Source: Acinetobacter sp. ANC 4204 (GTDB lineage: Bacteria > Pseudomonadota > Gammaproteobacteria > Pseudomonadales > Moraxellaceae). Taken from it: 64,000 nt of DNA. A program made the translations under genes and the position numbers. Positions 35,377-52,794 of this stretch are shown piece by piece. Position 1 is the stretch's first letter. Each line of letters opens with the position of its first letter. The notes beneath the pieces were generated by a model. That model ran no database searches. It saw nothing but the letters and a program-made list of their open reading frames with translations, and was not told the DNA's origin. The stretch covers positions 62,001 to 126,000 of the forward strand of contig NZ_NEFZ01000010.1 of assembly GCF_002135205.1 (NCBI RefSeq), read 5' to 3'.

Positions 35377-35408
35377 AAAAAAATAAAAAAATAAAAAAAT
35401 AAAAAAAT
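35377..35408. repeat. Four tandem copies of AAAAAAAT
   Basis: An exact 8-bp unit repeated four times in the convergent gap between the esterase and the minus-strand alcohol dehydrogenase. Such A-tract repeats can change copy number by slippage. The remainder of 35409-35676 shows no gene. Confidence 0.9.
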
Positions 35409-35676
35409 TATCAATACAGAACCTATTTCTAAGTAAATACAGCTTATTCATAAGCACCATTTTTATTAGTTTTTACCTAACTTAAAGGTGTCTATAAATA
35501 TGGGAACTATTCGATGAATAAAATTTTTGGTTGCTTAGAATAGGTTAAAAATTGAGAGTGATTGATCTTGAGAGTGGCATGTTGTTTTTTAAATTATTTT
35601 TCTTTATATATTAGAATTTATCTTGAGATAAGCATTAGAAATAATGCTTATCTACCTATATATTGAAATAATTGAA

Positions 35677-36768: not shown

Positions 36769-36840
36769 ACATTTTTCCTTAAATGTAGCTGTTATCTCGC
36801 CGAGTGCTCGATAACAGCGTGTTGTAGATATAATAAAATA

Positions 36841-38289
36841 TTAGTTAATCAATCGAATTGAATGTGGCTCTAGATAAGATTTCAATGTCTCGTTAATATC
36901 TAATTCACGTCCAATACCACTTTGCTTGATACCACCGAATGGCATACCAAGTTGTAGCGAATCGAAACTATGACTATTAATAAATGTGCTGCCTGCCTCA
37001 ATCTTCTGAGCAATTTCATAGGCACGTTCAATGTTGTCAGACCAAACTGAAGAACATAAACCTTGCTCATTATCATTGGCATATGCAATCGCTTGTTCAA
37101 CTGAATCATAACCAATCAATGGGATAATCGGTCCGAATTGTTCTTGTTGAACAATTTCTAAGGAGTTATCGAGAGTTTTCACAACATGCGGTAAAACGTA
37201 GTATCCCTTATCCCATTGTTCTGGATTCAGTTTTTGCCCTAATTCACGTACTTCACATTGATCTGATGCTTTTGCATTTTCAATAAATTTCTGCACGATT
37301 GACCACTGTTTTTTATTGTTAAGTGGCCCAAAATTTGCGTCAGCATCTAAGCCATGCCCAACTTTGTATTTATCCACTTCTTCACATACAAGATCAAAAT
37401 AATGATCAAGTTTATCTTTGGGTACATACACACGTTTTACCGCAAAACAGATTTGTCCGCTACGGGTAAATACACCTTTTAATAATTTTGGAAGAATCGC
37501 TTTAAAATCCGAGTCATCTAAAATAATAGCAGCGTCATTTCCACCTAATTCAAGTGTGACATCTTTAATCGATTGTGCTGCACTAGCCATAACGGCTGCA
37601 CCTGTTGCAGTACCACCCGTAAATGCAACTTTACGTATAAGAGGATGGCTGGTCATAAGATTGCCTACATCTGCATCACCATGCACAACATTGATCACAC
37701 CTTTAGGGAAGATTGCTGCAATTTTTGCTAACAATTGCGTTAATGCTAATGCCGCAAAAGGAGAGGGCTTTAACACTACGGTATTACCCGCCAATAAGAG
37801 TGGTCCAAGTTTCATCATGGTCAACACAATAGGCATGTTCCAAGGAACAATCGCTGAGATAACGCCTTTAGGCTTTTTGTGAATACGAATCCAACCGTTT
37901 TCTTCTGATATTTCTTTTGGAACCAAGAAGTCGTCTGGAGCTTGAGCATACATACTCATAACACCTGATCCTAAGTAAAAATCAGTTTCTGCTTCCCACA
38001 GCATACCGCCATGTTCAGAAACTAGTAGTTCCTTTAAATTATCTTTTTCTTGAAAAATGAGCTCAGATGCTTTTTTTAACAGTTCTTGTCTTTCAGCAAT
38101 TGGTGTGTCTTTCCATGTTTGAAAAGCTTTATGAGCCGCTTCAATTGCTTTATTGACATCATCGAGGCTGGTATTGCTAATCGTTCCGATTTGCTGGGTG
38201 GAATTTCCCGGATCATACACAGGTTGAATCTGGTCGGAAGGGGGTAAGAACTCTCCGTTTATAAAACCAGTTATTTGAACTTGTGACAT
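36841..38289 (-). CDS. NAD(P)-dependent aldehyde dehydrogenase
   Basis: A 482-residue aldehyde dehydrogenase with VPWNMPI in the cofactor pocket, FTGGTATG, catalytic Glu in LELGGND and catalytic Cys in RSGQICFAV. It is first in a two-gene minus-strand unit with the alcohol dehydrogenase, and divergent from a LysR gene 168 bp away, so alcohol-to-acid oxidation under LysR control is likely. It resembles the benzaldehyde/salicylaldehyde-type branch but the substrate is uncertain. Confidence 0.88.
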   Translation of the reverse strand: MSQVQITGFINGEFLPPSDQIQPVYDPGNSTQQIGTISNTSLDDVNKAIEAAHKAFQTWKDTPIAERQELLKKASELIFQEKDNLKELLVSEHGGMLWEAETDFYLGSGVMSMYAQAPDDFLVPKEISEENGWIRIHKKPKGVISAIVPWNMPIVLTMMKLGPLLLAGNTVVLKPSPFAALALTQLLAKIAAIFPKGVINVVHGDADVGNLMTSHPLIRKVAFTGGTATGAAVMASAAQSIKDVTLELGGNDAAIILDDSDFKAILPKLLKGVFTRSGQICFAVKRVYVPKDKLDHYFDLVCEEVDKYKVGHGLDADANFGPLNNKKQWSIVQKFIENAKASDQCEVRELGQKLNPEQWDKGYYVLPHVVKTLDNSLEIVQQEQFGPIIPLIGYDSVEQAIAYANDNEQGLCSSVWSDNIERAYEIAQKIEAGSTFINSHSFDSLQLGMPFGGIKQSGIGRELDINETLKSYLEPHSIRLIN

Positions 38290-38457
38290 ATGTGTTTCTC
38301 CTTGAAAGCACTCAGATCCATTCTGTAGTGTATCGATAGATTTAATATCTAGAAATTCAAAAATATGTATCTGATATTTTGAATTTAGATAATAATAGTC
38401 ACAATAATGGAGATAAAGTAAGCTTTTTTGAGAGCTTATATTTCATGGAGTGAAAGT

Positions 38458-39357
38458 ATGAGTGCCTACGATAAAGTAAGTGATTTAGAATTTTTTTTAA
38501 AAATTGTTGAAGCAGGCTCATTAACTCGCGCTGCAATACTGATGGAAAGCTCTTTACCGTCTATGAGTCGTCGTTTGTCTCAGTTGGAGCTACGCTTAGG
38601 GGTGAAACTAATTGATCGTAATGCGAGACGCTTCAAATTGACAGACAAGGGAGAATTTTTTTTAGAAAATACCCGACAAATTGTTTCGTTGATTGAGAAG
38701 ATGGAAAACAATTTACAAGCTGAACAAGAGTTTTTGACAGGTCGTCTAAGAATCGCCTGTTTGAATCAGTTTGGAAAACAATATTTAGCTGGCTGGATTG
38801 CAGAGTTTAATCAACTCTATCCCCATTTAAAGATTGAATTACTCCTGTCCGATTCTAAAGTAGATTTAATGGAACAAGAACTTGATTTTTCGTTCCAAAT
38901 TGAAGTTCCGCTAGAGCTTGATTATTGTGCAATACCTTTAATCGAAGGTAAAAAAATATATTGTGCTTCTCCTGAATACCTAGATAGATTTGGCATCCCC
39001 CTTAATCCTTATGATTTAAGAGACCACCGTTGTCTATGCCTCATCAGAAATCGTCATACTTTTAATGATTGGCCATTTTGGGATAATGGGAAAAATTTGA
39101 ATATTAAAGCCACCCCATACTTATCGAGTGATAGTAGTGAAGTAGTTCATAATTGGGTATTAAATGGTCTCGGGATTGCTTATAAATTAAACTGGGATAT
39201 CCAAAAAGATATTGCTTCTGGTGCAATTATTGAATGCTTGGAGACATTCAATCCGCTACATAAAAATTTATATCTGGTGTATCTAGCAAATAATCAATCA
39301 CAACTTAAATATATTCATTTTATTGATTTTATTGAAAGTAAATTTAAAAAAACATAA
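38458..39357 (+). CDS. LysR-family transcriptional regulator
   Basis: A 299-residue LysR protein with helix-turn-helix SLTRAAILMESSLPSMSRRLSQLELRLG near the N-terminus and an effector domain from about 90. The ATG at 38458 is used because GGAG lies 7 nt upstream; a TTG-started frame 10 codons longer has no ribosome site. Divergent from the aldehyde/alcohol dehydrogenase pair, its probable target. It is the last ordinary metabolic gene before the accessory island. Confidence 0.87.
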   Translation: MSAYDKVSDLEFFLKIVEAGSLTRAAILMESSLPSMSRRLSQLELRLGVKLIDRNARRFKLTDKGEFFLENTRQIVSLIEKMENNLQAEQEFLTGRLRIACLNQFGKQYLAGWIAEFNQLYPHLKIELLLSDSKVDLMEQELDFSFQIEVPLELDYCAIPLIEGKKIYCASPEYLDRFGIPLNPYDLRDHRCLCLIRNRHTFNDWPFWDNGKNLNIKATPYLSSDSSEVVHNWVLNGLGIAYKLNWDIQKDIASGAIIECLETFNPLHKNLYLVYLANNQSQLKYIHFIDFIESKFKKT

Positions 39358-39532
39358 GATATTGATGCTTTTAGAAAAGCATTAAAAAATGGTAACCGAG
39401 GTACTTATGAGTAATAAAGATATCCAGAAAAATTCACAATTGAAGCAGGACACAGAAAGGTCATAGCGTTAGCCCTATAGCCTATATGAATGACATATTT
39501 AATTAACTATTCAAATTTCTTCTTTTATCATG

Positions 39533-40741
39533 TCAATAACTTTTGGTACTAGGATATGGTGCCATAATGTTTGCGATTGAACGTTCTATAGATGTCCGTA
39601 ATCCATCGAATAATTGAACCTCATTAGATGTTTGAAGATAGTCCAATATATTTTCGCTAAAGGATTCTATGATTGCTTTGGGATTTCTGATTCTAAATTG
39701 GTCACTTTCAGCTAATTTGATGAGATGTGTAAGATCTGGAAATGCTTTACTACTAGCCAGTTTGAGGGCCATTTTATTATCAATTGATTTATAAATGAGT
39801 GTATGCGTAATATCAAAAGGTGGTGAAACAAAAATGTTCTTCATATCTGGGGAATATTGCAAAGCAAAGTTTTTAAGATGTGCATCGCCATTGCCGATTA
39901 AACAGTTGAATACAACGTATTTATAAATTTTTTCAACTTCAGCTGCGCTACGAGTATATAGATAGGTCGCTTTCAGAAGTGTTTCATAGCTACCTGCATA
40001 TTTCGCATTTGGGTCATTTGACTTTTTCATGAGCGTCGTAAAGTCTTCATAGCCTAGTTTTGTACCATCGCTGGATTTATCAAACCGCTCTACCACATAT
40101 GTTTCTAAATTTTCAGACAAATAAGTCTTTGGTGTCTCAAGTCCACAATGCGATGCAGCCTGCATACAGACAAATTCATTGACTGTGAGTAATGGAAACT
40201 CAGAATCAAACGACTTTACAATCAAATCCCTCTGTTGAACTGTTATATCCGTTTGAACAGTAGTAATAGCATTTGGAATGCTTACCTTGGGTTGCATACC
40301 AGCCAATGATGTCCTGAGATAGTATTTTTCTAATAGTTGTGGGAAAAGAGATTCTTTACTACGGTAGGATAGAATTTCACTTAAGCTCAAGGACTCAGCT
40401 TCGGGCAAATTTAACTCACTTTTGTATGAGAGCATTCCGATGCCTTGATCACCTTGCAGTGCCAATAAATACATATCATTGACCTTGGCATATCTTGAAA
40501 GCTTTTCAGCGATTAATCTACGATTAAACCCTTCAGGTAGGTTTTGAGCAAATATTGGGTGAATTGAGTCTGACGAATAACCATCCATGCCTCTTTGAGT
40601 CATAGTAAGTGATATATGTTGTTTTTCTTGTGTTGGCTGATAGTGGTGCACTGAACCATATGTCAATATGCCTAATTCAGCTTGATTAGCACACACTGTG
40701 ATATTGGTGATTTTGGCAGGAAGGTTGGTTTGTGTATTCAT
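39533..40741 (-). CDS. hipA: HipA-family toxin kinase
   Basis: A 402-residue Ser/Thr kinase-fold toxin of a type II toxin-antitoxin pair. An N-terminal HipA_N-like domain (about 1-105) precedes the kinase domain, whose phosphate-binding region is near TSLAGMQPKVS, with YVVERFD and the catalytic loop GNGDAHLKNFAL. HipA of E. coli phosphorylates glutamyl-tRNA synthetase and arrests translation. Its start overlaps the hipB stop by 4 bp (ATGA), indicating translational coupling. The pair opens the accessory island on its left side. Confidence 0.9.
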   Translation of the reverse strand: MNTQTNLPAKITNITVCANQAELGILTYGSVHHYQPTQEKQHISLTMTQRGMDGYSSDSIHPIFAQNLPEGFNRRLIAEKLSRYAKVNDMYLLALQGDQGIGMLSYKSELNLPEAESLSLSEILSYRSKESLFPQLLEKYYLRTSLAGMQPKVSIPNAITTVQTDITVQQRDLIVKSFDSEFPLLTVNEFVCMQAASHCGLETPKTYLSENLETYVVERFDKSSDGTKLGYEDFTTLMKKSNDPNAKYAGSYETLLKATYLYTRSAAEVEKIYKYVVFNCLIGNGDAHLKNFALQYSPDMKNIFVSPPFDITHTLIYKSIDNKMALKLASSKAFPDLTHLIKLAESDQFRIRNPKAIIESFSENILDYLQTSNEVQLFDGLRTSIERSIANIMAPYPSTKSY

Positions 40742-40998
40742 TCGTCATCTTCAGCAAACATATTTTCAATCTCATCCCAATGGGGTAGTGAATGTCGCTG
40801 TGGAGATACATCAAATTGTAAACCAACTGCATCAAGCACATGCTCAAATATGTCAAAAGAACCCATAAATCGCCCATTCTCGATCTCTGATATGGTGGTT
40901 TTATTGACAGTAGTTTTTTCTGAAAGTGTCTTTTGTGTATAGCCTAGCGCTTTTCTTGCTAAACGTATCTCTTGACCTATTTCTCTTCTAGAAGCCAT
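40738..40998 (-). CDS. hipB: HipB-like XRE antitoxin
   Basis: An 86-residue helix-turn-helix protein (GQEIRLARKALGYTQKTLSEKTTVNKTTISEIENGR) with a short C-terminal tail rich in acidic residues, as in antitoxins that plug the partner or are proteolysed. It precedes and overlaps hipA. It probably represses the operon by binding the repeated TGTTAGC-ATATAG sequences just upstream. Confidence 0.88.
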   Translation of the reverse strand: MASRREIGQEIRLARKALGYTQKTLSEKTTVNKTTISEIENGRFMGSFDIFEHVLDAVGLQFDVSPQRHSLPHWDEIENMFAEDDE

Positions 40999-41021
40999 AT
41001 GAGTTAATTGTTCCTAAAATA

Positions 41022-41074
41022 TGTTAGCTATATAGATAATATGAAACCATTTATACTCAATGTTAGCCATATAG
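41022..41074. promoter_or_regulatory. Direct-repeat operator before hipBA
   Basis: TGTTAGCTATATAG at 41022-41035 and TGTTAGCCATATAG at 41061-41074 differ at one base, are 39 bp apart, and the core GC(T/C)ATATAG is nearly palindromic. They lie 24 and 63 bp before the hipB start, suited to cooperative HipB binding. Confidence 0.6.
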
Positions 41075-41101
41075 CAAATTTTTTTATTAATATTTTCTTG
41101 A

Positions 41102-41302
41102 GATATATCTTTAGAAAAGCTTAAGAGTACTGAAAACTTAGATTCACACTTTAACGCCACTCATTGTATCTATAGTTTCGATAAAAACTCCCCCCTTAAT
41201 TTGATTGGCTCAAAGGCTTTACTTTTAACTGAAGAATACCTAATAGATTTAAAATTTAGTGATGACTTCTTTTTGATTAAATTGAATTTATTGCTGACAT
41301 AA
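41102..41302 (+). pseudogene. Open 66-codon fragment without a start codon
   Basis: Between hipB and the SIR2 gene one frame stays open from just after a TGA at 41099 to a TAA at 41300. Its conceptual product has protein-like composition (for example KALLLTEEYLIDLKFSDD), yet no ATG, GTG or TTG at a useful place. It may be the remnant 3' end of a lost island gene, or chance. No family is recognised. The rest of this gap should hold the SIR2-HerA promoter. Confidence 0.25.
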
Positions 41303-41408
41303 GTTTTTATTTCACTTATTATTTTTAGATAAAGAATTCGTAAGATGTGTACTGAGATAGGATAACAACCTAGTCTCGTACAGGTAAAGTATAAGAAGAG
41401 ATCATATC

Positions 41409-42422
41409 GTGTCTAATGTTAATTATGAAAAACAAGCACAAGATTATTACGGGAAGGCTCCCATTATAATTCTGGGCAGCGGAGCCTCTGCTGCACATGG
41501 GATGTCAGGCATGTGGGCGCTTGCGAAACATTTGATTGAAAAAACTGATGTTTCGGAATTATCTGAAGAGGAGTTAGAGTGTTGGGGGATTTTCTGCCAA
41601 AAACTTACAGATGGTGTAGATCTTGAGACTGCACTCCATCAGGTAAACGTATCGAAAGAGCTGACGAACAGGATCATTAACTCTACTTGGTCACTTATCA
41701 ATTTTGAAGATTGTAATGTTTTTGATAATGCACTTCAAAATACTGAAATGTTTCCATTAAGCCGCCTTCTTGAACACATGTTTGGGACAAGCAACAAAAC
41801 CATAAACATTATCACAACAAATTATGACCGCTTAGCAGAGTATGCCTGTGAACAAAGAAAAATTCATCATTATACTGGCTTCACACATGGATTTTTCCGT
41901 CAATTAGCCACTCCTAATGAGTTGACCTGCGCACGTAGAGTAAATATTTGGAAAGTACATGGTTCTCTAGATTGGTTTCAATCGCCATTTGAAGATACTA
42001 TTGCAATTTCTGGTATACAGAAAATACCTAATAAATACACTCCACAAATCGTGACCCCTGGAACTCAAAAATATCAGAAAACTCATTTTGAACCTTTTCG
42101 CTCCATTATTAATAGCGCTGATATTGCTATTAATCAAGCTGGTTCATATTTATGCATTGGATATGGATTTAATGATGAGCATATTCAGCCTAAACTCATG
42201 GCTAAATGTCATAGACAGAGAGCACCAGTCACCATAATTACATATTCGCTTTCTGATTCAGTTAGAAAACTTATCTTTGATGGAAGAGCACAAAATTACT
42301 TAGCAATAGAAAGAGGAGAAACAGATAACCAGTCTGTAGTCTATTCTTCACTAGGTGAAGCACCAATTATAGTAGAAAAGAACATCTGGAGTCTCGAAGG
42401 TTACCTGTCACTCATCATGTAG
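41409..42422 (+). CDS. SIR2-domain NADase of an anti-phage SIR2-HerA pair
   Basis: A 337-residue SIR2-like protein. GSGAS at residues 23-27 is the NAD-binding glycine motif, TTNYD (Asn137) and KVHGS (His183) hold the residues needed for NAD cleavage in defence sirtuins, and GYGFNDEHI is the late nucleotide-site motif. It starts with GTG, backed by AAGAAG 8 nt upstream. herA begins 9 bp after its stop. In known SIR2-HerA systems both proteins assemble and deplete NAD on infection. No regulator is adjacent. Confidence 0.85.
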   Translation: MSNVNYEKQAQDYYGKAPIIILGSGASAAHGMSGMWALAKHLIEKTDVSELSEEELECWGIFCQKLTDGVDLETALHQVNVSKELTNRIINSTWSLINFEDCNVFDNALQNTEMFPLSRLLEHMFGTSNKTINIITTNYDRLAEYACEQRKIHHYTGFTHGFFRQLATPNELTCARRVNIWKVHGSLDWFQSPFEDTIAISGIQKIPNKYTPQIVTPGTQKYQKTHFEPFRSIINSADIAINQAGSYLCIGYGFNDEHIQPKLMAKCHRQRAPVTIITYSLSDSVRKLIFDGRAQNYLAIERGETDNQSVVYSSLGEAPIIVEKNIWSLEGYLSLIM

Positions 42423-42431
42423 AGAAGCAAT

Positions 42432-44159
42432 ATGCCAATATTCAACTTTAGGGATGAAAATGCCCTTGGAAAGGTCGCATCTGTCGACACAACAAATGTT
42501 ATTGTGGAAGTGAATAATATCACTCATCTAAAACGACTACAGGTAAACCATCTAGCAGTACTTCAGAGCAGTCGACCTGGGCAACATCTCATTGGCCTCA
42601 TTACACAAGTAACTAGAAAGCGAGGGGTTGAAGATCTCACCAATGATGGAATTAATGATCAAAATTCTGAATTGAATCTTTGTCGTATCAGTTTAATTGG
42701 AACCATGCTAGATCGAGATGGAGCAAACGAAAATGTCTTTCGAAGAACACTAGAAAGTGTTCCTGAAATAGATGCGAATTGTTTCTCTCTTGAAGGAGAA
42801 AATCTCACTGGATTTATGCGCACACTTTCCAGTGTTTCAGCTGATGGAAATGCTTTGACACTCGGGAAATATACCTTGGACGAGAATGCGGTAGCGTATC
42901 TGAACGGGAATAAGTTCTTTCAACGTCATGCCTTCATTGGAGGAAGCACAGGTTCTGGGAAATCATGGACAACCGCAAAAATTATTGAGCAGATGTCTAG
43001 GCTTTCAACTGCAAATGCTATTGTTTTTGATCTTCATGGAGAATATGCACCATTGACAGAGCCAAGCATTCAGCATTTTAAAGTTGCTGGACCAGCTGAT
43101 GTTGAAGCTAAGCGCACTATTTCTGACAATGTGCTTTATCTTCCTTATTGGTTACTTTCTTATGAGGCATTGGTCTCCATGTTCGTGGATCGTAGTGATC
43201 AGAATGCACCTAATCAAGCGATGATTATGGCTCGTGAGATTAATCATGCAAAAAGAAAGTACCTTGAAGATAGTAGTCAACAGGATTTATTAAAACATTT
43301 TACTGTTGATAGTCCTGTTCCATTTGATCTCCATTTTCTTATGGAGCGATTAAATTCGATAAACGTTGAAATGATTCCTGGTGCTAGAGGTGAAAAACAA
43401 GGTGATTTCTTTGGGAAGCTTGCTCGCATGATTTCCAGACTTGAAAACAAGATTTCTGATAGACGCCTCGGGTTTATATTCAGTGGTGGAGGGGATATTC
43501 TTGATTTTGATTGGCTTGAAAAATTTGTTAGTTCAGTACTTGGTAGTACAGATGAAAATGGTAAGGCCGGTATCAAGATCATTAACTTTTCCGAAGTTCC
43601 TTCAGATGTGCTCCCTTTGATAGTATCCCTTGTGGCACGAGTCACATTTTCCGTACAGCAGTGGACTCCATCTGAACTTCGCCATCCAATTGCACTTCTC
43701 TGTGATGAAGCACATTTATATATGCCCCAGCGCAATATGGCAGACTCTGCCGATGATATTTCATTGGATATATTCGAGCGTATTGCAAAAGAAGGTCGTA
43801 AATATGGTGTTAGCTTAATTGTAATCAGCCAACGGCCATCTGAAGTTAATAAAACACTACTAAGCCAATGTAGCAACTTTGTGTCTATGCGATTGACCAA
43901 TGCAGAGGATCAAAGTGTTATCAAACGACTTCTTCCTGATAGCCTTGGTGGTTTTAGCGATATTCTTCCTACCCTAGATACTGGTGAAGCTTTGGTAGTT
44001 GGTGATGCAAGTTTATTGCCGAGCCGTATCAGAATCGATGAGCCGAAGAATAAGCCGAATAGTGGTACTGTTAATTTTTGGGATGAATGGCAAAAACCTG
44101 TTAAAGAAAAACGTTTATTTGCTGCTATAGATAACTGGCGGAAACAAAATATTCAATAA
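42432..44159 (+). CDS. HerA-like hexameric ATPase/translocase of the SIR2-HerA pair
   Basis: A 575-residue HerA/FtsK-superfamily ATPase. The N-terminal HAS-barrel-like region (about 1-150) precedes Walker A GGSTGSGKSWT at 170-180, Walker B ALLCDEAHLYMP near 420 and the HerA sensor region SQRPSEVNKTLLSQCSNFVSMRLTN. It forms rings that pair with the SIR2 effector. Its last 40 bp, the terminator and the next gene are copied in inverted form at 53.0-53.8 kb. Confidence 0.87.
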   Translation: MPIFNFRDENALGKVASVDTTNVIVEVNNITHLKRLQVNHLAVLQSSRPGQHLIGLITQVTRKRGVEDLTNDGINDQNSELNLCRISLIGTMLDRDGANENVFRRTLESVPEIDANCFSLEGENLTGFMRTLSSVSADGNALTLGKYTLDENAVAYLNGNKFFQRHAFIGGSTGSGKSWTTAKIIEQMSRLSTANAIVFDLHGEYAPLTEPSIQHFKVAGPADVEAKRTISDNVLYLPYWLLSYEALVSMFVDRSDQNAPNQAMIMAREINHAKRKYLEDSSQQDLLKHFTVDSPVPFDLHFLMERLNSINVEMIPGARGEKQGDFFGKLARMISRLENKISDRRLGFIFSGGGDILDFDWLEKFVSSVLGSTDENGKAGIKIINFSEVPSDVLPLIVSLVARVTFSVQQWTPSELRHPIALLCDEAHLYMPQRNMADSADDISLDIFERIAKEGRKYGVSLIVISQRPSEVNKTLLSQCSNFVSMRLTNAEDQSVIKRLLPDSLGGFSDILPTLDTGEALVVGDASLLPSRIRIDEPKNKPNSGTVNFWDEWQKPVKEKRLFAAIDNWRKQNIQ

Positions 44160-44165
44160 TTCTAA

Positions 44166-44194
44166 AAGTCATTGGGGTATAGCCCCAATGACTT
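44166..44194. terminator. Bidirectional terminator between herA and the MbcA-like gene
   Basis: AAGTCATTGGGG and CCCCAATGACTT form a 12-bp stem; downstream on the plus strand the sequence is AATTATTTCTATTTTT. It lies between two convergent genes. A mutated copy is in the inverted repeat at about 53696-53723. Confidence 0.8.
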
Positions 44195-44225
44195 AATTAT
44201 TTCTATTTTTTAGAGGGAATTCACT

Positions 44226-44558
44226 TTATTTCAAAATCTCTAGAAACGTTAACACTGCAATTAAGCCTTCAGAATCTTTTATCTGCTCAGCAGGAATACC
44301 GCCTGTTCCTTTATTAAAGTTTTTCATAAAATGTTGAATCAGCCTAATATCGTTACCATTTAAAGCATGTAAGGATTTGAAGATTCGGATGAGTATTAAC
44401 GCCCTCTGACCAGATTCAGATATTGGATCTATTTCCGAATTACAACTTAATCTAAGATCAACCCCAAGAACAGTTACAAGGTCATCTTGACTAACTTCTA
44501 GAAAATCAGCAGCTTTTAATACGGCTTTTACTAGAACCTCATTTCCGTTCATGCTCAT
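44226..44558 (-). CDS. DUF2384/MbcA-ParS-type antitoxin-like protein
   Basis: A ~110-residue protein. The first half is a helical DNA-binding-like region (VLKAADFLEVSQDDLVTVLGVDL) and the second half has the RIFKSLHALNG...GGIPAEQIKDSEGLIAVLTFLEIL pattern of the Xre/MbcA/ParS toxin-binding domain. The start at 44558 is chosen because the duplicate gene at 53326 begins at the equivalent position. The usual RES-domain toxin partner is absent on both sides, so it may regulate the neighbouring defence genes or be an orphan antitoxin. The family assignment is by motif shape. Confidence 0.6.
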   Translation of the reverse strand: MSMNGNEVLVKAVLKAADFLEVSQDDLVTVLGVDLRLSCNSEIDPISESGQRALILIRIFKSLHALNGNDIRLIQHFMKNFNKGTGGIPAEQIKDSEGLIAVLTFLEILK

Positions 44559-44751
44559 AAAAAATACTACTCTAAAAGTTGTATATAAATTATTATTAAA
44601 ACTCATTATAACGAGTATATTTGAACTGTGCCAAGTATCCTATACAGTAAACGGAACTCAATTATAAGTAGCCATATGCGCCACATATAGTCAAAAATAT
44701 TAAAAATCTACTTAACTAAATAAAAATAGAATTTTTCTACAATGAGGTTAT

Positions 44752-47742
44752 ATGAAACAAGCTAACGAATTAAAAGTAGGAAAGAGTACGATAACTAAGC
44801 TGTCACTCAATGATCATGAACACTCGCCCGATTCAGTTTTAAAATCATGGTTAAAGTCTAATTTCTTTTTTATTGAAGAAAATCAAACTTTAGGAGGCAG
44901 GGGACTTAGGCCACCACAATTAGGTGGAATATTTGCAGCTCTGGGCTATGAAAAATCTGATGAGAAAAATGCAGCGACAATTGTTATGCCAACTGGCACA
45001 GGTAAAACTGAAACGATTCTATCAATTGTAGTTGCTGGGAAGTTTAAAAAAACTTTAGTTATTGTTCCGTCAGATGCTCTACGAGAGCAGACAAAAACTA
45101 AGTTTGTTGAACTTGGCTTATTGAGAGACTTAGGTCTAGTTACGAATGATATGCTTAATCCTGTAGTTTCAACCATCAAACATGGGATTACTAATACAGA
45201 AGAATTATCCAAAATATTAAAAGCTAATGTTCTAATAGCATCTGCGGCCTCATTATCAAAATTTTCAAAGGAGTTTTTTGATAAGCTTACTAGTGAATGT
45301 ACACATTTAATAGTTGACGAAGCTCATCATGTAGCAGCTTCTACTTGGGCAAGGATTAAATCACAATTTAGAGATAAATCTGTCTTTCAATTTACAGCCA
45401 CTCCATTCCGAAGTGATGGTTCAAGGGTGGAAGGAAAAATAATCTTCAATTATCCTTTGAAACGGGCACAAGAGGAAGGATATTTCAAGCCTATCGTATT
45501 TCATCCTGTGCGAGAGTTTGTTGAAGAAAAGTCAGATGAGGCGATAGCTAAGCAAGCTATATTGTTATTAAGAGAAGATTTAGAAAATGGCTTAGATCAC
45601 ATAGTTATGGCTAGAGCTTCATCTATGAAGCGGGCTAAAGATATTTTTAATATATATTCGAAAGAAAAAGACCTTAACCCTGTATTGATAGATAGTAAAA
45701 CTAAGAAGAAAGCAGAAGTTCTTAAAGCAATTAGAAATAGAGAACATAAGATCATCGTATGTGTAAATATGCTTGGAGAGGGATTCGATCTTCCTCAGCT
45801 GAAAATTTCAGCCATTCATGATCCCCATAAAAGTATAAATGTAATGCTCCAATTTACGGGTAGGTTTACAAGAACGACTAAGAATGTTGGTGATGCCAAG
45901 TTTATTGCAAACATCGCCAACCCTAATGTCAATGAAAGTTTGGAAGAACTTTATAAAGAAGATTCAGATTGGAATACAGTAATTAGCAGTATTAGCTCTA
46001 GAAAAATTAAAAATGAAAAAGAATATCAAGCATTTCGAGAGGAATTTTCTGAACCTAGTAAATTATTAGATTTGGGATTAACTCCGAGTATAAGTACTAC
46101 TATTTATAAAATGAAGTTTGCTAAATGGAAGCCAGAAAAGTTTAGTGAGTTTGGGAATAAACAGTTTCAGATCGTAGATTCAATAATTAATGACGAACAG
46201 GATACATTGGTTTTTTCTGTTAAGTCTTATTTGCCTGTAGGCTGGACTAGTTCTAAAGAGCTTTTCGATGAATCATGGGATTTATATATTGCTTTCTATG
46301 ATAAGGATACAGATTTACTTTTTATCCATTCTTCTTCGAAAGATGGATTGGTCAAGAGATTAATACAACTAATTGCTGAAGATGCTATTCAGGTTAAGGG
46401 TGAATATATATTTAGAGCGTTGGCAAATTTAAAAAGATTAAAGCTTCAAAACGTTGGTCTTAATAAAAATAAGAAGGGGCTGCGTTATTCTATGCATACA
46501 GGGACAGAAATTAATGATCAAATTCCTGACATAGAGGCAAATAGAGCAACTAAATCGAATATTTTTGGTAAAGGGTATGAAAATGGTCAGCTTGTAAGTA
46601 TTGGCTGTTCATATAAAGGTAAAATTTGGGCAATGGATAGTGATTCTTTAGACCAATGGGTAGCATGGTGCAAAGGAGTGGGTACTAAAATACTAGACGA
46701 TACTATTAATACAAATGATGTTATGAAAACAGCCATGCAAACTGAAGAGTTGGAGGAGTTCCCAAATATTCAGGTGCTTGCTGTTGAATGGCCAATAGAG
46801 ATTCTTCGAAAAAATGAATCGAAAATAACCGTTAAAGCAACTAAATGGGAAGAGTCACTAATAAATTGTGATCTAATTTTTAGTGATGAACAGAATCTAG
46901 ATATGAAAGAGCTTCAGATCTGTCTAAGAACACAATATGGACTTAGTAAAATCACCATGAAGATTAAAGGTCGTGGAGAAGTAGTCTTCCATTCAGAAGA
47001 TAACCTAGACATCAAGATAGGTGAGCAATCATATTCAATTGCTGAGTTCTTTGAGGAAAACTCTCCGACGCTCTTTTTGAGAGATACTTCAATAATCGAT
47101 GGTGGTTTTAGATTTTACCCCAATGATAATTACGCTTATAAGTATGACATTAATAATACAGAAGACTGGGATTGGCAGGGTGTTGATATATCCGTTGAAT
47201 CACAAACAACAAGTAAGTTAAAGCATTCAATTCAATACTCTACGATTAAAAAAGTTATGAATGACTATGATCTTATTTTTGATGATGATGGCGCAGGTGA
47301 AGTTGCTGATATCGTCGCAATAAAAAACATTGATGATAATAAACTAGTCATAGACTTATTCCATTGTAAATATTGCTCTAAAAAAGATGGTGTAGCTAAA
47401 CCAGGTGCTAGAATCGATGATGTATACCAAGTTGTAGGGCAAGCAGAAAAAAGTGTTAAGTGGTTTGCAGATAAAGAAAGATTAATTTTGCGTTTAATGG
47501 AAAGAGAGCGAGATCGTTTGAGCCAAGGTAAAGCTTCTAGAATCGATAAAGGTAAGTTCGAGGACTTAATCAACTTAGCAAAAATTGCAAGGTATGCTGA
47601 CTTTCAACTAGGTGTCGCAATTGTTCAACCCGCAATTTCCAAAGCTAAAATGTCAGATGATCAATTGACTGTGATTGGTGCTACTGCTGCATATATTAAT
47701 GAAATTAGTGGTTTAAAATTAAGAGTGATTATTAATAAATAG
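44752..47742 (+). CDS. Large superfamily-2 helicase with nuclease-like C-terminal domain
   Basis: A 996-residue protein. Walker A MPTGTGKTET is at 80-89, motif II VDEAHH at 188-193, motif III FTATPFRSDG near 214, and motifs IV-VI lie by about 380 (NMLGEGFDLPQL, QFTGRFTRT). The middle 430-830 matches nothing I recognise. Near 843-870, GEVADIVAI followed by KLVIDLFHCKY looks like the acidic, D/E-x-K type metal site of restriction-endonuclease-fold nucleases. It sits between an antitoxin-like gene and the tns genes, so a DNA-targeting defence role is likely. It is not one of the standard defence genes I can name. Confidence 0.75.
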   Translation: MKQANELKVGKSTITKLSLNDHEHSPDSVLKSWLKSNFFFIEENQTLGGRGLRPPQLGGIFAALGYEKSDEKNAATIVMPTGTGKTETILSIVVAGKFKKTLVIVPSDALREQTKTKFVELGLLRDLGLVTNDMLNPVVSTIKHGITNTEELSKILKANVLIASAASLSKFSKEFFDKLTSECTHLIVDEAHHVAASTWARIKSQFRDKSVFQFTATPFRSDGSRVEGKIIFNYPLKRAQEEGYFKPIVFHPVREFVEEKSDEAIAKQAILLLREDLENGLDHIVMARASSMKRAKDIFNIYSKEKDLNPVLIDSKTKKKAEVLKAIRNREHKIIVCVNMLGEGFDLPQLKISAIHDPHKSINVMLQFTGRFTRTTKNVGDAKFIANIANPNVNESLEELYKEDSDWNTVISSISSRKIKNEKEYQAFREEFSEPSKLLDLGLTPSISTTIYKMKFAKWKPEKFSEFGNKQFQIVDSIINDEQDTLVFSVKSYLPVGWTSSKELFDESWDLYIAFYDKDTDLLFIHSSSKDGLVKRLIQLIAEDAIQVKGEYIFRALANLKRLKLQNVGLNKNKKGLRYSMHTGTEINDQIPDIEANRATKSNIFGKGYENGQLVSIGCSYKGKIWAMDSDSLDQWVAWCKGVGTKILDDTINTNDVMKTAMQTEELEEFPNIQVLAVEWPIEILRKNESKITVKATKWEESLINCDLIFSDEQNLDMKELQICLRTQYGLSKITMKIKGRGEVVFHSEDNLDIKIGEQSYSIAEFFEENSPTLFLRDTSIIDGGFRFYPNDNYAYKYDINNTEDWDWQGVDISVESQTTSKLKHSIQYSTIKKVMNDYDLIFDDDGAGEVADIVAIKNIDDNKLVIDLFHCKYCSKKDGVAKPGARIDDVYQVVGQAEKSVKWFADKERLILRLMERERDRLSQGKASRIDKGKFEDLINLAKIARYADFQLGVAIVQPAISKAKMSDDQLTVIGATAAYINEISGLKLRVIINK

Positions 47743-47868
47743 CTAACGTTAATTAAAGATTTACGCAACCTGAATGAATAATTGATCATGTAACAGGAAA
47801 TAACCCTCAAAAATATAAGAGAAAATAATTTAAAATTTAATCAATATAATTGACCTATTGTGATTTTA
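47743..47868. other. Short gap between helicase and tniQ
   Basis: Convergent gap of 126 bp. I looked here for reversed TnsB repeats (TTAGAAT type) that would mark the second transposon end and found none. No good terminator is visible either. Confidence 0.5.
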
Positions 47869-49104
47869 TTACGAAAAATAGTTCAAATCATTAATCTTTA
47901 TTTTTATGCTTTTAAATACCTCGAAACTATTAAAATTATAAAGAATAATTATCCCAAATTTTAAATTTTTTATAACTTTTACTTTATCAAAAACTGATAA
48001 ATCATCAAAATAAATAAAATCTGAAATCAGGTCCTTTTCAGTTGAAAACACACTAATATCAACACATAAATCAAAAATACTCTTAATATCTACATAAGCC
48101 CCATCGTAACACTTTAAAATATTTTCACAGCAAAGCAGATTAATAAACCACTCCTGTAAAATAAGTATGTTTGCACAATTTTTATAACTTAAAAAACAGT
48201 ATTTTCCTGAATCAACTTTTTTTAAAAATCCTTTAAGGTTAATAAAATAATATGAATCTAATTTTTTAACTAATTTAGTATTTATTTCAACACCAAATCC
48301 ATGTATTGTATACTTTCTCAAAACTTCATTTAAATTATTATAAAATACAATATTTTCAAGATTGCAAATAATATCTTCGATTTCAATTAAAAAAAATATA
48401 TAATCAGCTACAAAATTAGATACTTGTCTAGAATAGACTCTATCTATAAATAAATATTTTCTTAAATAAGATTCAAAACAATTATTTTTATTAATAAGAA
48501 GATCATAAGATTGATTGAAGCAACTAGAAAAATACCTTGTTGAGTATGATAAACTATTTGGAGAATAATACTTAAATTTAAAAAAATTATGGAAAATTTT
48601 AAAAATATCTGAAATATTATTACTTGTATTTAATCTAAAAATATTTCCAGAAAAGATGTTTTCATGACATTTTTTACAAAAAAAATTATTCAATATATTA
48701 AATGAATATAAAGAACCACAAAATGAACATCTACAACTTATTGGCAATTTATGATGGCAACAAACATAATCTTTAATGTACCAATCTTTTTTTATGTAAT
48801 TTAACTCTTTAAAACACTCTAAACAAAGATATACATTTGCAGAAATGTAGTACTTTTTATCTGTTATACAAAGATTTTTAATTTCATTACAATTTAAACT
48901 CGTGTAAGTTGAAAATAATATTTTATCAAAATTACCTTTAACGATATCAATGAGACTAATTTTAGTTCCCAAAATGGTTTTACATATGATATCAATAGAT
49001 GAGTAACCATTTTCAATGCGCAATCGTTCTAAGTAACTCAAAATATATTCATCATCTAAAGGGGCAGGACGTACTAAAAACTTAGTACTAGATAGGAGGG
49101 ACAT
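47869..49104 (-). CDS. TniQ/TnsD-family target-selection protein
   Basis: A ~411-residue TniQ-family protein. The N-terminal segment LLSSTKFLVRPAPLDDEYILSYLERL is the TniQ opening motif. Zinc-finger Cys/His sets follow (CLECF ... CCHHKLPISCRCSFC ... FFCKKCHENIF). The rest is AT-rich and divergent. The ATG at 49104 has AAGGAGA about 7 nt upstream and overlaps the end of tnsC. TniQ proteins bind a target and recruit the TnsC ATPase; as the only TniQ here it should set the insertion site. Confidence 0.85.
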   Translation of the reverse strand: MSLLSSTKFLVRPAPLDDEYILSYLERLRIENGYSSIDIICKTILGTKISLIDIVKGNFDKILFSTYTSLNCNEIKNLCITDKKYYISANVYLCLECFKELNYIKKDWYIKDYVCCHHKLPISCRCSFCGSLYSFNILNNFFCKKCHENIFSGNIFRLNTSNNISDIFKIFHNFFKFKYYSPNSLSYSTRYFSSCFNQSYDLLINKNNCFESYLRKYLFIDRVYSRQVSNFVADYIFFLIEIEDIICNLENIVFYNNLNEVLRKYTIHGFGVEINTKLVKKLDSYYFINLKGFLKKVDSGKYCFLSYKNCANILILQEWFINLLCCENILKCYDGAYVDIKSIFDLCVDISVFSTEKDLISDFIYFDDLSVFDKVKVIKNLKFGIIILYNFNSFEVFKSIKIKINDLNYFS

Positions 49105-50077
49105 TATCTTTTCTCCTTGCAATAGATCTAAATGCCTTTTTTGTACTTAGTGTAGACCCTACCAATGCCCAAGACATGAATGTCTCATAACTCACACTAA
49201 AGGGATTTTGAAAATTAGGAAAAATAGACTCATTTCTAAAAATTGATTTATTGTAAATATATTCAAAATATTCACGTTTTATTAAATTGGAATCAATATT
49301 AATCGCATGTCTAAAAACCAATTTTATAAATTTCATTATATTAGCAACAGTACCATTTGCAGCAAAGAACAGAGGTAAATAAAATTCTTTATCCAAGAAG
49401 AAATTATCTTCGAATTCAAAATTCGACTTATCTTTGATTATAGATAAAAATTTTACAAACTCCGCATCACCATTTACTGTGGATACATTAAATGGATCAA
49501 TAGAATGTGAATAGTAAAACCGGCGCCTCAGTTGAGAATTTCTTAATAAGATTTCTTCAGATTCTGGAAGACCCAGAAGTACAATAGGAGTTTTGGAATG
49601 ATTAATAAGACTCTTTAACCAATTGGAAACATCATCAAATTTTCTATCGCTAGCATTATTAATTAAATGTTGGAATTCATCAATAATTATTAGCTTAACA
49701 CGGCAATTATATAATAATTTGTATAATTTATTTGTCATACTAACTTTTGTACCTGATGCTGGATTGGGATCTCCTAAAGCATCTAACATTGTAGAAGCTA
49801 TATCTTTAATTGATGCTTGAGATGGAATTTCGACAGAAAAAACAGGAACACATGTTCTATCAGCTAACTCTTCCCTAGGATGATTCTGAAGATAATGCTC
49901 TATTAAACAAGTTTTACCTACGCCGCTATGTCCTGTTATAAAAAGGCAATTAGGTTCGGAAGATACGCCAGATAAACAATATATTTTTTCAATTACGTTT
50001 AAGATTTCTTGTAATCGTGGATATACAATATAAATATTCTCAATTTCTCTCAATCTAATATCATTATTATGGGACAT
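49088..50077 (-). CDS. tnsC: TnsC/TniB AAA+ transposition regulator
   Basis: A ~330-residue AAA+ ATPase. Walker A GHSGVGKT is at 49-56, Walker B LIIIDEFQHL near 140, and sensor/arginine-finger segments follow (PIVLLGLPESEEIL, RRRFYYSH). It links TniQ target binding to the TnsAB transposase. It is shorter than Tn7 TnsC and nearer the TniB size class. The ATG at 50077 lies 4 bp after the tnsB stop; a longer frame starting inside tnsB is less likely. Its 3' end overlaps tniQ. Confidence 0.88.
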   Translation of the reverse strand: MSHNNDIRLREIENIYIVYPRLQEILNVIEKIYCLSGVSSEPNCLFITGHSGVGKTCLIEHYLQNHPREELADRTCVPVFSVEIPSQASIKDIASTMLDALGDPNPASGTKVSMTNKLYKLLYNCRVKLIIIDEFQHLINNASDRKFDDVSNWLKSLINHSKTPIVLLGLPESEEILLRNSQLRRRFYYSHSIDPFNVSTVNGDAEFVKFLSIIKDKSNFEFEDNFFLDKEFYLPLFFAANGTVANIMKFIKLVFRHAINIDSNLIKREYFEYIYNKSIFRNESIFPNFQNPFSVSYETFMSWALVGSTLSTKKAFRSIARRKDNVPPI

Positions 50078-50081
50078 AAGA

Positions 50082-51974
50082 TTAATCTCGACTAAAAATA
50101 CTCCAGTTATCATTATCATCTATTTTTTCATCTAAGTCTTTTATCTTATCGTAATCAGATATTGGACTACCATCATTTCTTGTAAGCTCTGGATCATTAT
50201 TAAATATGCTAGAAGACACATTCTTATAGTATAAAACTTTATCTTTTCGCTTAGCTTTTTTATTTTTATCACCTAAACTGAGCAAATATTCATTAATTCT
50301 ATTAACAGCTGAATATATTTTATCTCTATCACTTTCATTTTTAGCATCTTTGCTGGAAATTTTTAAAATACATTCATGTTGGAAAACAGTTTTATTCCTT
50401 GTATATTCTTGATCAACGGCATTAACTTTAAAATATTTTTTCAAAAGATTTGAAAAAACGTAAATATAAGAAATGTCCTCCCAATTTCTTTTTAACTTAA
50501 CTTTACAATTACCTAAAGTATTTCTTCTAATAAAATTTAAGTTCTCATCATTATAGTAAATATTATCTATAGAAATTCCTGATTTTGAAATTGAACGCTC
50601 TAAAGTTTTACCCATAATAATATTTATTTCATCATAGCTAAAAGGTAATGAAACAGGACTATCTTTTTGAGAATCTTTCCATAAAGTATAAGGTGTTCCT
50701 CTTTTCCGTTGATTGTAAGTATTGTGATATATATCAACAATATAAATATACAGCACTTGAATGAAATTATGATATGGAAGTGAATATTTTTTATTTTCAC
50801 TTCTATGATAACTACCTGGCAAGTTATCTATCAATTTTTTATTTAAGGTACTAAAAAAATTTTCAATATATCTTTTATACCATGGATGATAGGGTGGTGC
50901 ATATTGGATATTCATACCCAACTCAAGACATATACTTTTAAAGTCATTACTATGAAATTCTTTACCATTATCTACTATTAAGTTCTCCATAATTCCATAC
51001 TGAAACCATCTTGACTTTAGTCCTTCAATATTTTTATGTATAACTTCTTTAGGGAGTATTGCAGATTTTATAGCTTGAATAACACAATTTGTATTTGGTT
51101 TACCAAATCCAATATATAAGCCCAGTATACTTAGAGAGAAATTATCTATAAGTAAAGTTAATATTGGCCGCCCTAAATTAACATCATCATAACTTACTTC
51201 TATATCTAAAAAAACATGATCTATTTCGACGTATTCTAGTATTCTACTAGACTTAATACCTTGCTTGTATGTTTTATATTGTTTAATAGCTTCAATGTTG
51301 CCATATCTACTTGAAACTACAGTTTTTTTATCAATAAGATTAACAAATTGACGTATTGTTTCATATGCTGGTTCTTTTAATTTTTTGTCTTCAGCTATAT
51401 TTTTTTGCCATATTAAATTATTTATTAATCTATGTAACTGCCTTATTGTTACTCTTTGACTATTTAAATAGAAATCATTTACAGCATTTTTTATTATATT
51501 TTCAACTTCTTCACTTATTTTAGGTATTCTAATTTGTTTGGCTATTAAATAACTAAAATCTATCTTACTATCAATCACATATCTCTTATTCCAGTTGTAT
51601 AAAGTTGCAACACAAGGTGGATTAGGATCACTAATTTCCTCAGATACTTTATTTATTATATTAATTAATTCATTAGTTCCACAATGCTCCACTTTTAAGA
51701 AGTATGTTAAATATCTAGCGATTCTAATAGCATTTTTTTGTTTTTTATCATCTAATGTATTTAAATCAATAGAATAAAATTCAGGGTTATAGGTGTAGGG
51801 TACTATAAAATTAGCTCTATATTCTTTATAGAACTCATCCTCAGTCATTCTATATAGTTTTTTATTATCTAATTTTTGTAAAGTAAAGCATAGCTCATTG
51901 ATACTTATTAGCTCGTAAAGTACTCCTTTCCAAAGAAATTTATTTCCCGCTTTAATTTCTAATTTATTTTTCAT
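50082..51974 (-). CDS. tnsB: TnsB/TniA DDE transposase
   Basis: A 630-residue Mu/Tn7-type integrase-fold transposase that joins the 3' ends. The catalytic triad is visible as Asp252 (VEIDHV), Asp335 (IVDNGKEF) and Glu371 (RYIENFF); 35 residues separate the last two, as expected. N-terminal DNA-binding helices (about 80-240) and a C-terminal beta-barrel-like region follow the family plan, and the basic, low-complexity C-terminal tail would contact TnsC. Its start overlaps tnsA by 4 bp. Confidence 0.92.
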   Translation of the reverse strand: MKNKLEIKAGNKFLWKGVLYELISINELCFTLQKLDNKKLYRMTEDEFYKEYRANFIVPYTYNPEFYSIDLNTLDDKKQKNAIRIARYLTYFLKVEHCGTNELINIINKVSEEISDPNPPCVATLYNWNKRYVIDSKIDFSYLIAKQIRIPKISEEVENIIKNAVNDFYLNSQRVTIRQLHRLINNLIWQKNIAEDKKLKEPAYETIRQFVNLIDKKTVVSSRYGNIEAIKQYKTYKQGIKSSRILEYVEIDHVFLDIEVSYDDVNLGRPILTLLIDNFSLSILGLYIGFGKPNTNCVIQAIKSAILPKEVIHKNIEGLKSRWFQYGIMENLIVDNGKEFHSNDFKSICLELGMNIQYAPPYHPWYKRYIENFFSTLNKKLIDNLPGSYHRSENKKYSLPYHNFIQVLYIYIVDIYHNTYNQRKRGTPYTLWKDSQKDSPVSLPFSYDEINIIMGKTLERSISKSGISIDNIYYNDENLNFIRRNTLGNCKVKLKRNWEDISYIYVFSNLLKKYFKVNAVDQEYTRNKTVFQHECILKISSKDAKNESDRDKIYSAVNRINEYLLSLGDKNKKAKRKDKVLYYKNVSSSIFNNDPELTRNDGSPISDYDKIKDLDEKIDDNDNWSIFSRD

Positions 51975-52576
51975 AACTTAAGCCTCAGAGAGATTTTTAA
52001 GTCACCATTAATTTCACGATTTACATCAAAATTAATAAAATTATTATACATGGCTGCATATATATATTTAATATCAATTAAATTAGAAAGCTTTTCTAAG
52101 CTTGTATCAAAATTAAAATTAAATTTTTCCTCGAAAGACAATCCTGAATATTTATATAAAAATTTTATGTTTTCCAACCTTGGTTGCAATCTAATTTCAT
52201 CTTCGTATAATATTTTGTAATTAATTTTTTCTATTTTGAAATACTCAGTTAATAATTTTAGTTTCTTGACAATTTTTGGATTTTCTAATGAGTTACTGAA
52301 TTTAACCTCAAAATACTTAAAACTCTTATCAGTATATTCAACATAAAAATCAGGAGTATATTGAACTTTATTACCATCATAGTTTAAAAAAAAGGTTTTT
52401 GGTTGAGAAAAATACTTTTTAATATTTTTGTCGAATTCTAATAAATAGCAAAAATCTCTTTCAAGTTGAGATTCCCAAGCGATCTGTGCATTCATCTTTT
52501 TACTGGAAAAAAGTCCAATAACTTTGCTCAGACCATTTCTATTATTAATTCGTCTAGCAGGGTGATAGCTTTCCAT
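51971..52576 (-). CDS. tnsA: TnsA endonuclease
   Basis: A 201-residue restriction-fold nuclease that cuts the 5' ends, allowing cut-and-paste transposition. Catalytic residues are visible as Glu in WESQLERDF (35-42), Asp76 in TPDFYVEY and E-x-K at 90-92 (YFEVKF). Compact compared with Tn7 TnsA but complete. It is the first gene of the tnsA-tnsB-tnsC-tniQ operon, whose promoter must lie within the transposon end. Confidence 0.9.
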   Translation of the reverse strand: MESYHPARRINNRNGLSKVIGLFSSKKMNAQIAWESQLERDFCYLLEFDKNIKKYFSQPKTFFLNYDGNKVQYTPDFYVEYTDKSFKYFEVKFSNSLENPKIVKKLKLLTEYFKIEKINYKILYEDEIRLQPRLENIKFLYKYSGLSFEEKFNFNFDTSLEKLSNLIDIKYIYAAMYNNFINFDVNREINGDLKISLRLKL

Positions 52577-52643
52577 AGAGAACCCCTCGATGTTCCTATA
52601 TCACTACTTTACATGTTGAAACTGTAACTCTCATCAGTAGCAA

Positions 52644-52728
52644 TGTATTCTAATAGTTAACTTGTATTCTAATAGTTATGTAGTCGTTATTCTAATTTAA
52701 CTAGTCAAATTCTAAAAGTTAACTAGTC
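52644..52728. repeat. Four TnsB-type end repeats (transposon end on the tnsA side)
   Basis: ATTCTAA-type units start at 52647, 52666, 52689 and 52709 (for example ATTCTAATAGTTAACT twice, ATTCTAATTTAACTAGTC, ATTCTAAAAGTTAACTAG), 19-23 bp apart and in one direction. Overlapping ~20-bp TnsB sites next to tnsA are the layout of the Tn7 right end. A candidate terminus is the ACA at 52750-52752 (TGTAGCC read inward). The opposite end was not found. Confidence 0.75.
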
Positions 52729-52766
52729 ATTGCATGCGTTGCGTAGGCTACAGTCTTAGATATTCT

Positions 52767-52794
52767 ATTTAACATAATATACATTATACGAACT
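52767..52794 (-). other. dif: dif site (XerC/XerD recombination site)
   Basis: Read on the minus strand: XerC arm AGTTCGTATAA, central TGTATA, XerD arm TTATGTTAAAT. The XerD arm and the central hexamer equal those I recall for E. coli dif, and the XerC arm differs by a few bases as expected for another genus. It is complete (11+6+11), so it is probably the chromosomal dimer-resolution site. It begins about 40 bp after the last TnsB repeat. Confidence 0.85.

Follow-up and report, generated by a model that had tools for sequence, protein, structure and literature searches.

Within Acinetobacter we identified, by sequence comparison, a putative family of Tn7-like transposons that inserts about 35 bp from dif, on chromosomes and plasmids alike. 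The range of distances, the orientation, the target duplications, the use of both chromosomal and plasmid targets and the link with a single TniQ clade were demonstrated at the sequence level. The dif site is the place where cells separate joined chromosomes. The family was recognized from a window of 64,000 nucleotides (G000:C2:62001-126000) in a genome of 3.9 Mb; positions given without a contig refer to this window.

The transposon next to the chromosomal dif site

The ORF list and the Pfam profiles placed tnsA, tnsB, tnsC and tniQ side by side in this order, all on the minus strand. The tnsA endonuclease gene (51971..52576, 201 aa) matched PF08722 (E 2e-8), and the tnsB gene for a DDE transposase (50082..51974, 630 aa) carried the Mu-transpos_C domain (PF09299) and matched other TnsB proteins in phmmer. 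The tnsC gene (49088..50119, 343 aa) encodes a TniB-type AAA ATPase (PF05621, E 4e-35), and tniQ (47869..49122, 417 aa), the putative dif target selector, scored 27.9 bits with PF06527 against a cut-off of 27. The tnsA-tnsB-tnsC-tniQ element proposed in the first-pass annotation was thereby confirmed, and the adjacency of tnsA, tnsB, tnsC and a gene for a TniQ-domain protein assigns it to the Tn7-like transposons.

The chromosomal dif site, AGTTCGTATAA TGTATA TTATGTTAAAT, lies at 52767..52794 on the minus strand; its XerD arm is the one next to the element. It agrees at 22/22 arm positions and is the full 28-bp XerC/XerD site that had been read from 52767 onwards. A pattern scan of the genome found it to be the sole match with up to two mismatches, and the same pattern was matched in 162 of the 175 genomes of the genus.

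The tnsA-side (right) end covers 52640..52734 and terminates in CATTGCA at 52734. Three of the four TnsB-type repeats announced for this end were recovered with a motif (at 52647, 52666 and 52709), and the fourth, a diverged copy between them, was read in the sequence. Inverted ends with several putative TnsB-binding repeats, as expected of Tn7-like elements, were thus found by sequence. The exact end TGCAATGACTA was present in two copies only in the 144 kb of contig scanned, in opposite orientations, at 52724-52734 (minus) and G000:C2:49216 (plus). The whole element spans approximately G000:C2:49217-114734 (65,518 bp); its left end is located 12,784 bp (~12.8 kb) ahead of the window start, and most of it, 1..52734, lies in the window. 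The pentamer TGCGT, the right copy of the target-site duplication (52735..52739), is repeated identically at C2:49212-49216. The duplication shrinks to 4 bp if the ends are strictly symmetric, hence one end base is ambiguous.

An unoccupied site was available in G115, the flank of which is 92% identical to that of G000 over 286 bp. It reads dif-ATCATATCCAAGACTGTAGCCTACGCAACCTCAGTTGGTGCTACAGC, and the matching G000 sequence is interrupted after CTACGCAACGCA. The alignment of empty and filled sites, advised in the annotation as the way to the 5-bp duplication, gave together with TGCGT on both sides the expected result (4 bp if symmetric) and put the terminus, at 52734, 32 bp from dif. The earlier placement of the terminus at the ACA at 52752, with an insertion point about 15 bp from dif, had to be given up. 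The candidate terminus at 52750-52752, with its TGTAG/CTACA inverted repeat, is part of a chromosomal hairpin present in empty sites and is accompanied by no duplication. The hairpin arm GCTACAG (52747..52753) can pair with CTGTAGC beside dif, also in genomes without the element there (G115 and, as a one-letter variant, G087); the loop in G000 would lack one base compared with that of G115. As defined by the duplications, the termini read 5'-TGCAATG in the window and 5'-CGTCA in the relatives and do not have the form 5'-TGT...ACA-3' listed for Tn7-like transposons. To our knowledge, such termini are not a universal requirement in this group.

The cargo in the window includes a gene pair of the SIR2-HerA anti-phage type (41409..44159, plus strand; PADLOC SIR2 E 8e-144, HerA E 2e-243), a gene for a 996-aa DEAD/ResIII helicase adjoining tniQ (44752..47742, plus strand; PF04851 and PF00271, weak PADLOC matches) and a gene for a HipA-like kinase (39533..40741, minus strand; PF07804, E 1.5e-41). 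Oxidoreductase, aldehyde dehydrogenase and acyl-CoA type genes were among the ten further cargo genes of the window that were scanned. According to annotations, the plasmid elements carry metal, formaldehyde-detoxification and CBASS genes.

Insertion sites of the related elements

The window TniQ used as a query gave matches in 5 of the 175 genus genomes (its own included) and in 8 plasmid records. The TniQ of G022 retrieved 11 plasmid records, including these 8, and the G022 TnsB was searched against the genomes. For each of the 5 genomes and 11 plasmid records we read the flank on the tnsA side, and the 16 elements were reduced to ten distinct insertion sites, five of which are plasmid sites. 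No close TniQ relative outside the genus was detected in 299 genomes of the family, 390 of the order and 369 of the class (overlapping samples that include some genus members), and none in viral contigs; among genome contigs TniQ relatives occurred in two records only, both from Acinetobacter.

A complete Xer site (dif or pdif) was located 32-37 bp from the tnsA-side end at seven of the ten sites, each with 22/22 positions on the Xer arms by a relaxed consensus. Six are approached from the XerD side: the chromosomal dif sites of G000 (32 bp), G130 and G022 (36 bp each) and G104 (34 bp), and the pdif sites of p5E-022166 (35 bp) and of the pAS843-2 group (three records, 37 bp), the latter a disrupted element that retains only a portion of tniQ and carries an IS5. 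The seventh, the pdif of pRIVM_C011601_2, is approached from the XerC side (36 bp). Because both XerD-side and XerC-side sites occur, recognition has no fixed polarity. The 6-bp spacer of the Xer sites varies and the two arms differ in sequence. Alignment of the six XerD-side sites showed invariant columns at 23/28 positions in dif versus 1/40 in the flanks.

An eighth site, 37 bp away on the XerC side, was inferred for G127 across an assembly gap by linking two contigs via an IS end, and would be the second approached from that side. The element terminates 32 bp inside an IS end, beyond which ATTAA and another IS end follow; an identical IS end opens the dif contig and leads through ATTAA into dif. 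Until the second IS copy entered, element and dif would have stood 37 bp apart. From its ACA end 5 bp off the XerC arm, the IS is a candidate member of the IS1202 type.

The last two sites are degenerate and both read with the XerC arm nearer. The pWM98-2 group (four records: pApiAE13c, pApW20-1, pAbW39-1 and pWM98-2) has a 15/22 site at offset 36, or 35 in pApW20-1 and pAbW39-1, which have one A fewer; the far XerD arm is perfect and the near arm poor, and the flanks of pApiAE13c and pWM98-2 part just beyond the XerD arm. The pRIVM0002 group (two records: pRIVM0002 and pRIVM_C011601_1) has a 16/22 site at offset 37. The sequence CCGATACACCTAAC comes after the 28-bp site in both its records and likewise after the pdif of pRIVM_C011601_2, and the empty site in pAP43 revealed that the pRIVM0002 site was already degenerate prior to insertion. 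Treating the two groups as counterexamples was considered and dropped; as their Xer-like sites, though degenerate, lie at a similar distance, they were counted as weaker cases. Two loci stand outside the ten. At G051:C34, where TnsABC are window-like and the TniQ match is confined to the N-terminal part, the 14 kb read contained no Xer site, and the element ends were not found. At G064:C2, with a TnsB 48% identical to that of G022 and a contig that stops within tnsC, so that TniQ is unseen, no Xer site was found in the 10.5 kb read.

The tnsA-side end was directed towards the Xer site at all ten sites (one inferred, two degenerate), which corresponds to the fixed-orientation insertion of Tn7-like elements at a defined attachment site. 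Matching 5-bp duplications, also typical of these elements, were found at eight of the ten sites with one record taken for each group; for G127 and the pAS843-2 group no left end was found. Besides TGCGT in the window, the duplications on the right/left flanks, read outward, were AAACA/TGTTT (G130), TTAGT/ACTAA (G022) and GATGC/GCATC (G104) on chromosomes, and CATTT/AAATG (p5E-022166), TTGAG/CTCAA (pRIVM0002), AAAAG/CTTTT (pWM98-2) and AGAAA/TTTCT (pRIVM_C011601_2) on plasmids. The duplications differ, therefore the insertions were separate events. The other complete elements had sizes of 15.3 kb (G022), 17.2 kb (G130), 21.7 kb (G104), 20.9 kb (p5E-022166), 24.7 kb (pRIVM0002) and 39.3 kb (pWM98-2).

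In 20,000 random stretches of the fetched DNA, a Xer score of 22/22 at offsets 31-38 was never obtained (0/20,000) and a score of 21 only once. Scores of at least 16, the level of pRIVM0002, arose in 261 stretches (1.3%) and of at least 15, the pWM98-2 total, in 1,087 (5%), and a perfect XerD arm such as that of the pWM98-2 group arose in 2/20,000. The chance per chromosomal insertion was estimated at ~3e-6. The Pfam TniQ profile had matches in 74 of the 175 genus genomes, and among the matches listed 26 TniQ domains of other types share a contig with dif, the nearest of them 513,613 bp from it and none within 500 kb; of the five dif-type TniQ genes this model lists two, those of G000 and G127. 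The remaining listed matches are on contigs other than that of dif, or in genomes that have no dif match or come after G137, the last one covered by the dif positions used. Among 19 further Tn7-like loci from the genus, in a few of which the sequence beyond tnsA was ~600 bp only, we found one near-perfect Xer site (21/22); it lay on the side of tniQ, away from the tnsA end.

The distances of TniQ relatives to dif or pdif, the measurement recommended in the annotation, hence amount to seven complete sites at 32-37 bp, one inferred at 37 bp and two degenerate at 35-37 bp. Neither of the outcomes named beforehand as speaking against the idea, namely relatives inserted at unrelated places and an empty site remote from dif, was encountered, the two degenerate sites being the weaker cases. 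The use of dif as a landing pad by a Tn7-like element is supported by the ten sites and the chance estimate, and the earlier reservation about chance proximity at one locus no longer holds with ten sites at 32-37 bp and 0/20,000 in the random stretches.

Target recognition and rival explanations

The element is very probably a Tn7-like cut-and-paste transposon with the Xer site (dif or pdif) as its attachment site, which TniQ would read as TnsD uses attTn7. TniQ, as the proposed reader, would recognize the Xer site either directly or via bound XerC/XerD and recruit TnsC. TnsAB would then act last, inserting the element 32-37 bp off the Xer site, its tnsA-side end turned towards that site, producing the 5-bp duplication and leaving dif intact.

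Trees of TniQ and TnsB were built from 24 paired rows, with the dif elements represented by G000, G130, G022, G127, p5E-022166, pApiAE13c and pRIVM0002. The seven TniQ proteins formed one clade (99/97), whereas their TnsB proteins fell into two groups and monophyly was rejected (lnL 116, AU p 9e-8). In the second set of trees, made under a mixture model without the long or fragmentary rows L106, L110, L113 and L130, support for the TniQ clade was 100/100 and TnsB monophyly was again rejected (lnL 38, AU p 2e-4). Six of the seven dif elements tested have a TnsB that clusters with a TnsB set taken here to be Tn6022-like. The window branch is long, and long branches were flagged in the trees; in the second TnsB tree the window was nearest by path to the dif rows, yet grouped with controls at 100/100. 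The window TnsC scored 117.0-121.1 bits with those of the dif elements and 118.9 bits with the best control, and is thus barely nearer to the former. Since TniQ is monophyletic and TnsB is not, dif targeting appears to follow TniQ, which seems to have been passed between TnsAB cores or retained as the cores changed. The seven TniQ proteins align over the full length with conserved C-terminal residues, including an invariant LYNFN near the C terminus. The similarity of TniQ to solved TniQ proteins is mainly in the zinc region. The predicted TniQ structure was set aside (mean pLDDT 34.7).

We see an even chance that TniQ reads bare dif DNA, as TnsD does at attTn7, and does not need XerC/XerD. 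The full-length alignment of the seven TniQ proteins with their conserved C-terminal residues is in agreement with this, as is the fact that TnsD of Tn7 reads DNA; the use of degenerate sites, perhaps poorly bound by XerC/XerD, hints at DNA reading too. What argues the other way is that the Xer site is used in either orientation at roughly equal distances despite the differing arms, and that the 6-bp spacer varies. Such two-sided use at a nearly constant distance is a hint of a symmetric Xer complex. Recognition by TniQ or TnsC of XerC/XerD on dif, or of the DNA bend that they make, would turn the element into a recombinase hunter like Tn5053, a reading that is plausible and only a shade on the doubtful side. 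It would fit the approach from either side, the variable spacer, the confinement of nearly all common bases to dif and the perfect XerD arm next to an imperfect one in the pWM98-2 group. Against it, the degenerate pRIVM0002 site was used with a score of only 16/22, and contact with a Xer protein is hypothetical. The combined proposal that TniQ senses the XerC/XerD-dif complex itself and has moved, as a transferable unit for dif targeting, from one TnsAB core to distant others is tentative, and we lean somewhat against it as a whole.

Two explanations dispense with target selection. Secondary dif-like units lie near dif in many genus genomes, so the area accumulates insertions, and random insertions might have survived only there; chance or selection of this kind is nevertheless extremely improbable, as the narrow range of 32-37 bp is taken to refute it. 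The single orientation shared by all ten sites, half of which are on plasmids, the remoteness of the 26 other TniQ domains on dif contigs (among the matches listed) and the low estimate per chromosomal insertion speak against it as well. The element could also have been brought to dif inside a Xer (dif) module without targeted transposition. Acinetobacter carries dif modules, as described in the available part of PMC12907356, and the flanks of pWM98-2 and pApiAE13c part just past the XerD arm, as Xer exchange would give. This is very unlikely for the primary insertions, for which it is refuted by eight insertions with their own 5-bp duplications; moreover, the bases adjacent to the terminus are local wherever the empty site is known (G000/G115 and pRIVM0002/pAP43), and a Xer-integrated element or dif module would have neither transposon ends nor duplications, both of which are present here. 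Xer exchange may have acted after primary insertion.

Relation to known elements and significance

TnsD is longer than the TniQ of ~410 aa described here. Tn7 with TnsD at attTn7 (glmS) and relatives such as Tn6171 (in the accessible part of PMC8190619) have in common with the dif elements TnsA, TnsB, TnsC and a selector with a TniQ domain. The likeness to Tn7 extends to several TnsB sites at the ends, the 5-bp duplication, a single orientation and a conserved site that is left undamaged. Unlike Tn7, the dif elements have as their target a recombination site, chromosomal or plasmid-borne, instead of a gene end, and their termini are 5'-TGCAATG or 5'-CGTCA, not TGT.

Elements of the Tn5053/Tn402 type lack TnsA and transpose replicatively, through a cointegrate. 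They also combine a DDE transposase, TniB and TniQ and direct insertion to a site-specific recombination site; going by the titles of papers on them, Tn5053 elements hunt res sites. The targets differ, being res of a serine resolvase there and sites of tyrosine recombinases here, and the window element possesses tnsA and a Xer-site target.

Insertion sequences of the IS1202 family lie 5 bp from the XerC arm of dif/pdif and were called "dif site hunters" (Harmer, Pong and Hall 2023, PMC10132070, accessible part); a 2023 paper by Siguier and others has a similar title. Members such as ISAjo2 and ISAba71 (PMC10132070, same part) resemble the dif elements in the use of dif/pdif in Acinetobacter, a TnsB-like transposase and the 5-bp duplication. 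They differ in being 1.5 kb long with a lone transposase, without TnsA, TnsC or TniQ, whereas the dif elements have four tns genes and are inserted 32-37 bp away, mostly on the XerD side. Tn6022 is also a Tn7-like element of Acinetobacter; it differs in its target comM, chosen by TnsF, according to the accessible part of PMC10293859.

No description of a Tn7-like element at dif was found in the literature as far as it could be searched. For A. baumannii, Correa 2024 reportedly distinguished four families of Tn7-like elements that differ in their sites, and is said to describe a dif-like site in Tn6022 that serves cointegrate resolution, not targeting. The novelty is provisional because one of these four families might be at dif. 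The whole word dif is absent from the main texts of Faure 2023, Benler 2021 and a 2024 review. The claim of an undescribed strategy consequently stands for Tn7-like elements within the part of the literature searched, but not for transposases in general, as targeting of dif is known in the IS1202 family (PMC10132070, accessible part).

A recombination site joins the list of Tn7-like attachment sites. Since dif is conserved and pdif copies are numerous on Acinetobacter plasmids, a dif-reading TniQ would have one address valid on the chromosome and on plasmids. The choice of target looks portable, as the seven TniQ proteins group together and their TnsB proteins do not. Dif-adjacent islands are predicted, exemplified here by one of 65 kb with an anti-phage gene pair. 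If TniQ senses the XerC/XerD-dif complex, the machinery that resolves chromosome dimers would guide a Tn7-like transposon.

Gene content of related elements and other Tn7-like loci

Upstream of tnsA, the 65,518-bp Tn7-like element of the window carries only a 158-bp end region, whereas the related dif-adjacent element of genome G022 has a gene for a 59-aa BcepMu gp16-like protein at this position (L017 6072-6251; E 9e-24). In the related element of G104, tniQ (L019 10284-11264; L129) was split into two pieces, the second of which contained stops; hence, this copy is probably immobile by the TniQ route.

The window genome encodes two more Tn7-like TnsB proteins, at C1:712036 (L105) and C18:66872 (L106), accompanied by different TniQ proteins. 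Neither of the 12-kb stretches read around these genes contained an Xer site. The TnsB of the element at G064:C2:350000-360533 (L104) was 48% identical to the G022 TnsB. The contig ends within tnsC of this element, with TniQ unseen, and no Xer site was detected in the piece read.

Degenerate dif-like site and its hairpin

A second, degenerate dif-like site was located at G000:C2:49123-49150 (L003 7123-7150), 66 bp beyond the left end of the window element, followed by a terminator-like hairpin; this site with its hairpin was also noted for the unoccupied-site genome G115 (L137). The unit of approximately 89 bp formed by this site and the hairpin has matches near dif in many genomes of the genus, sometimes in more than one copy.

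Possible Xer exchange, and IS ends at Xer sites

The plasmids pApiAE13c and pWM98-2 (L012 and L015) have the element end and the next 64 bp of flank in common; their sequences part exactly past a perfect XerD arm, approximately 65 bp outside the element. Such a divergence is the pattern expected of Xer exchange at a hybrid site.

At the chromosomal dif of G127 (L030 152-219) and G060 (L036), an IS end lies 5 bp from the XerC arm. Both ends look like IS1202-type by position and their ACA terminus, and the spacing agrees with PMC10132070. A Tn7-like insertion lies within an IS1202-type-looking IS end in G127 C35 (L018) and in pRIVM_C011601_2 (L071); the IS ends hit themselves sit, or sat, beside an Xer site. 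Each is a case of two dif hunters, an IS and a Tn7-like element, stacked at one Xer site.
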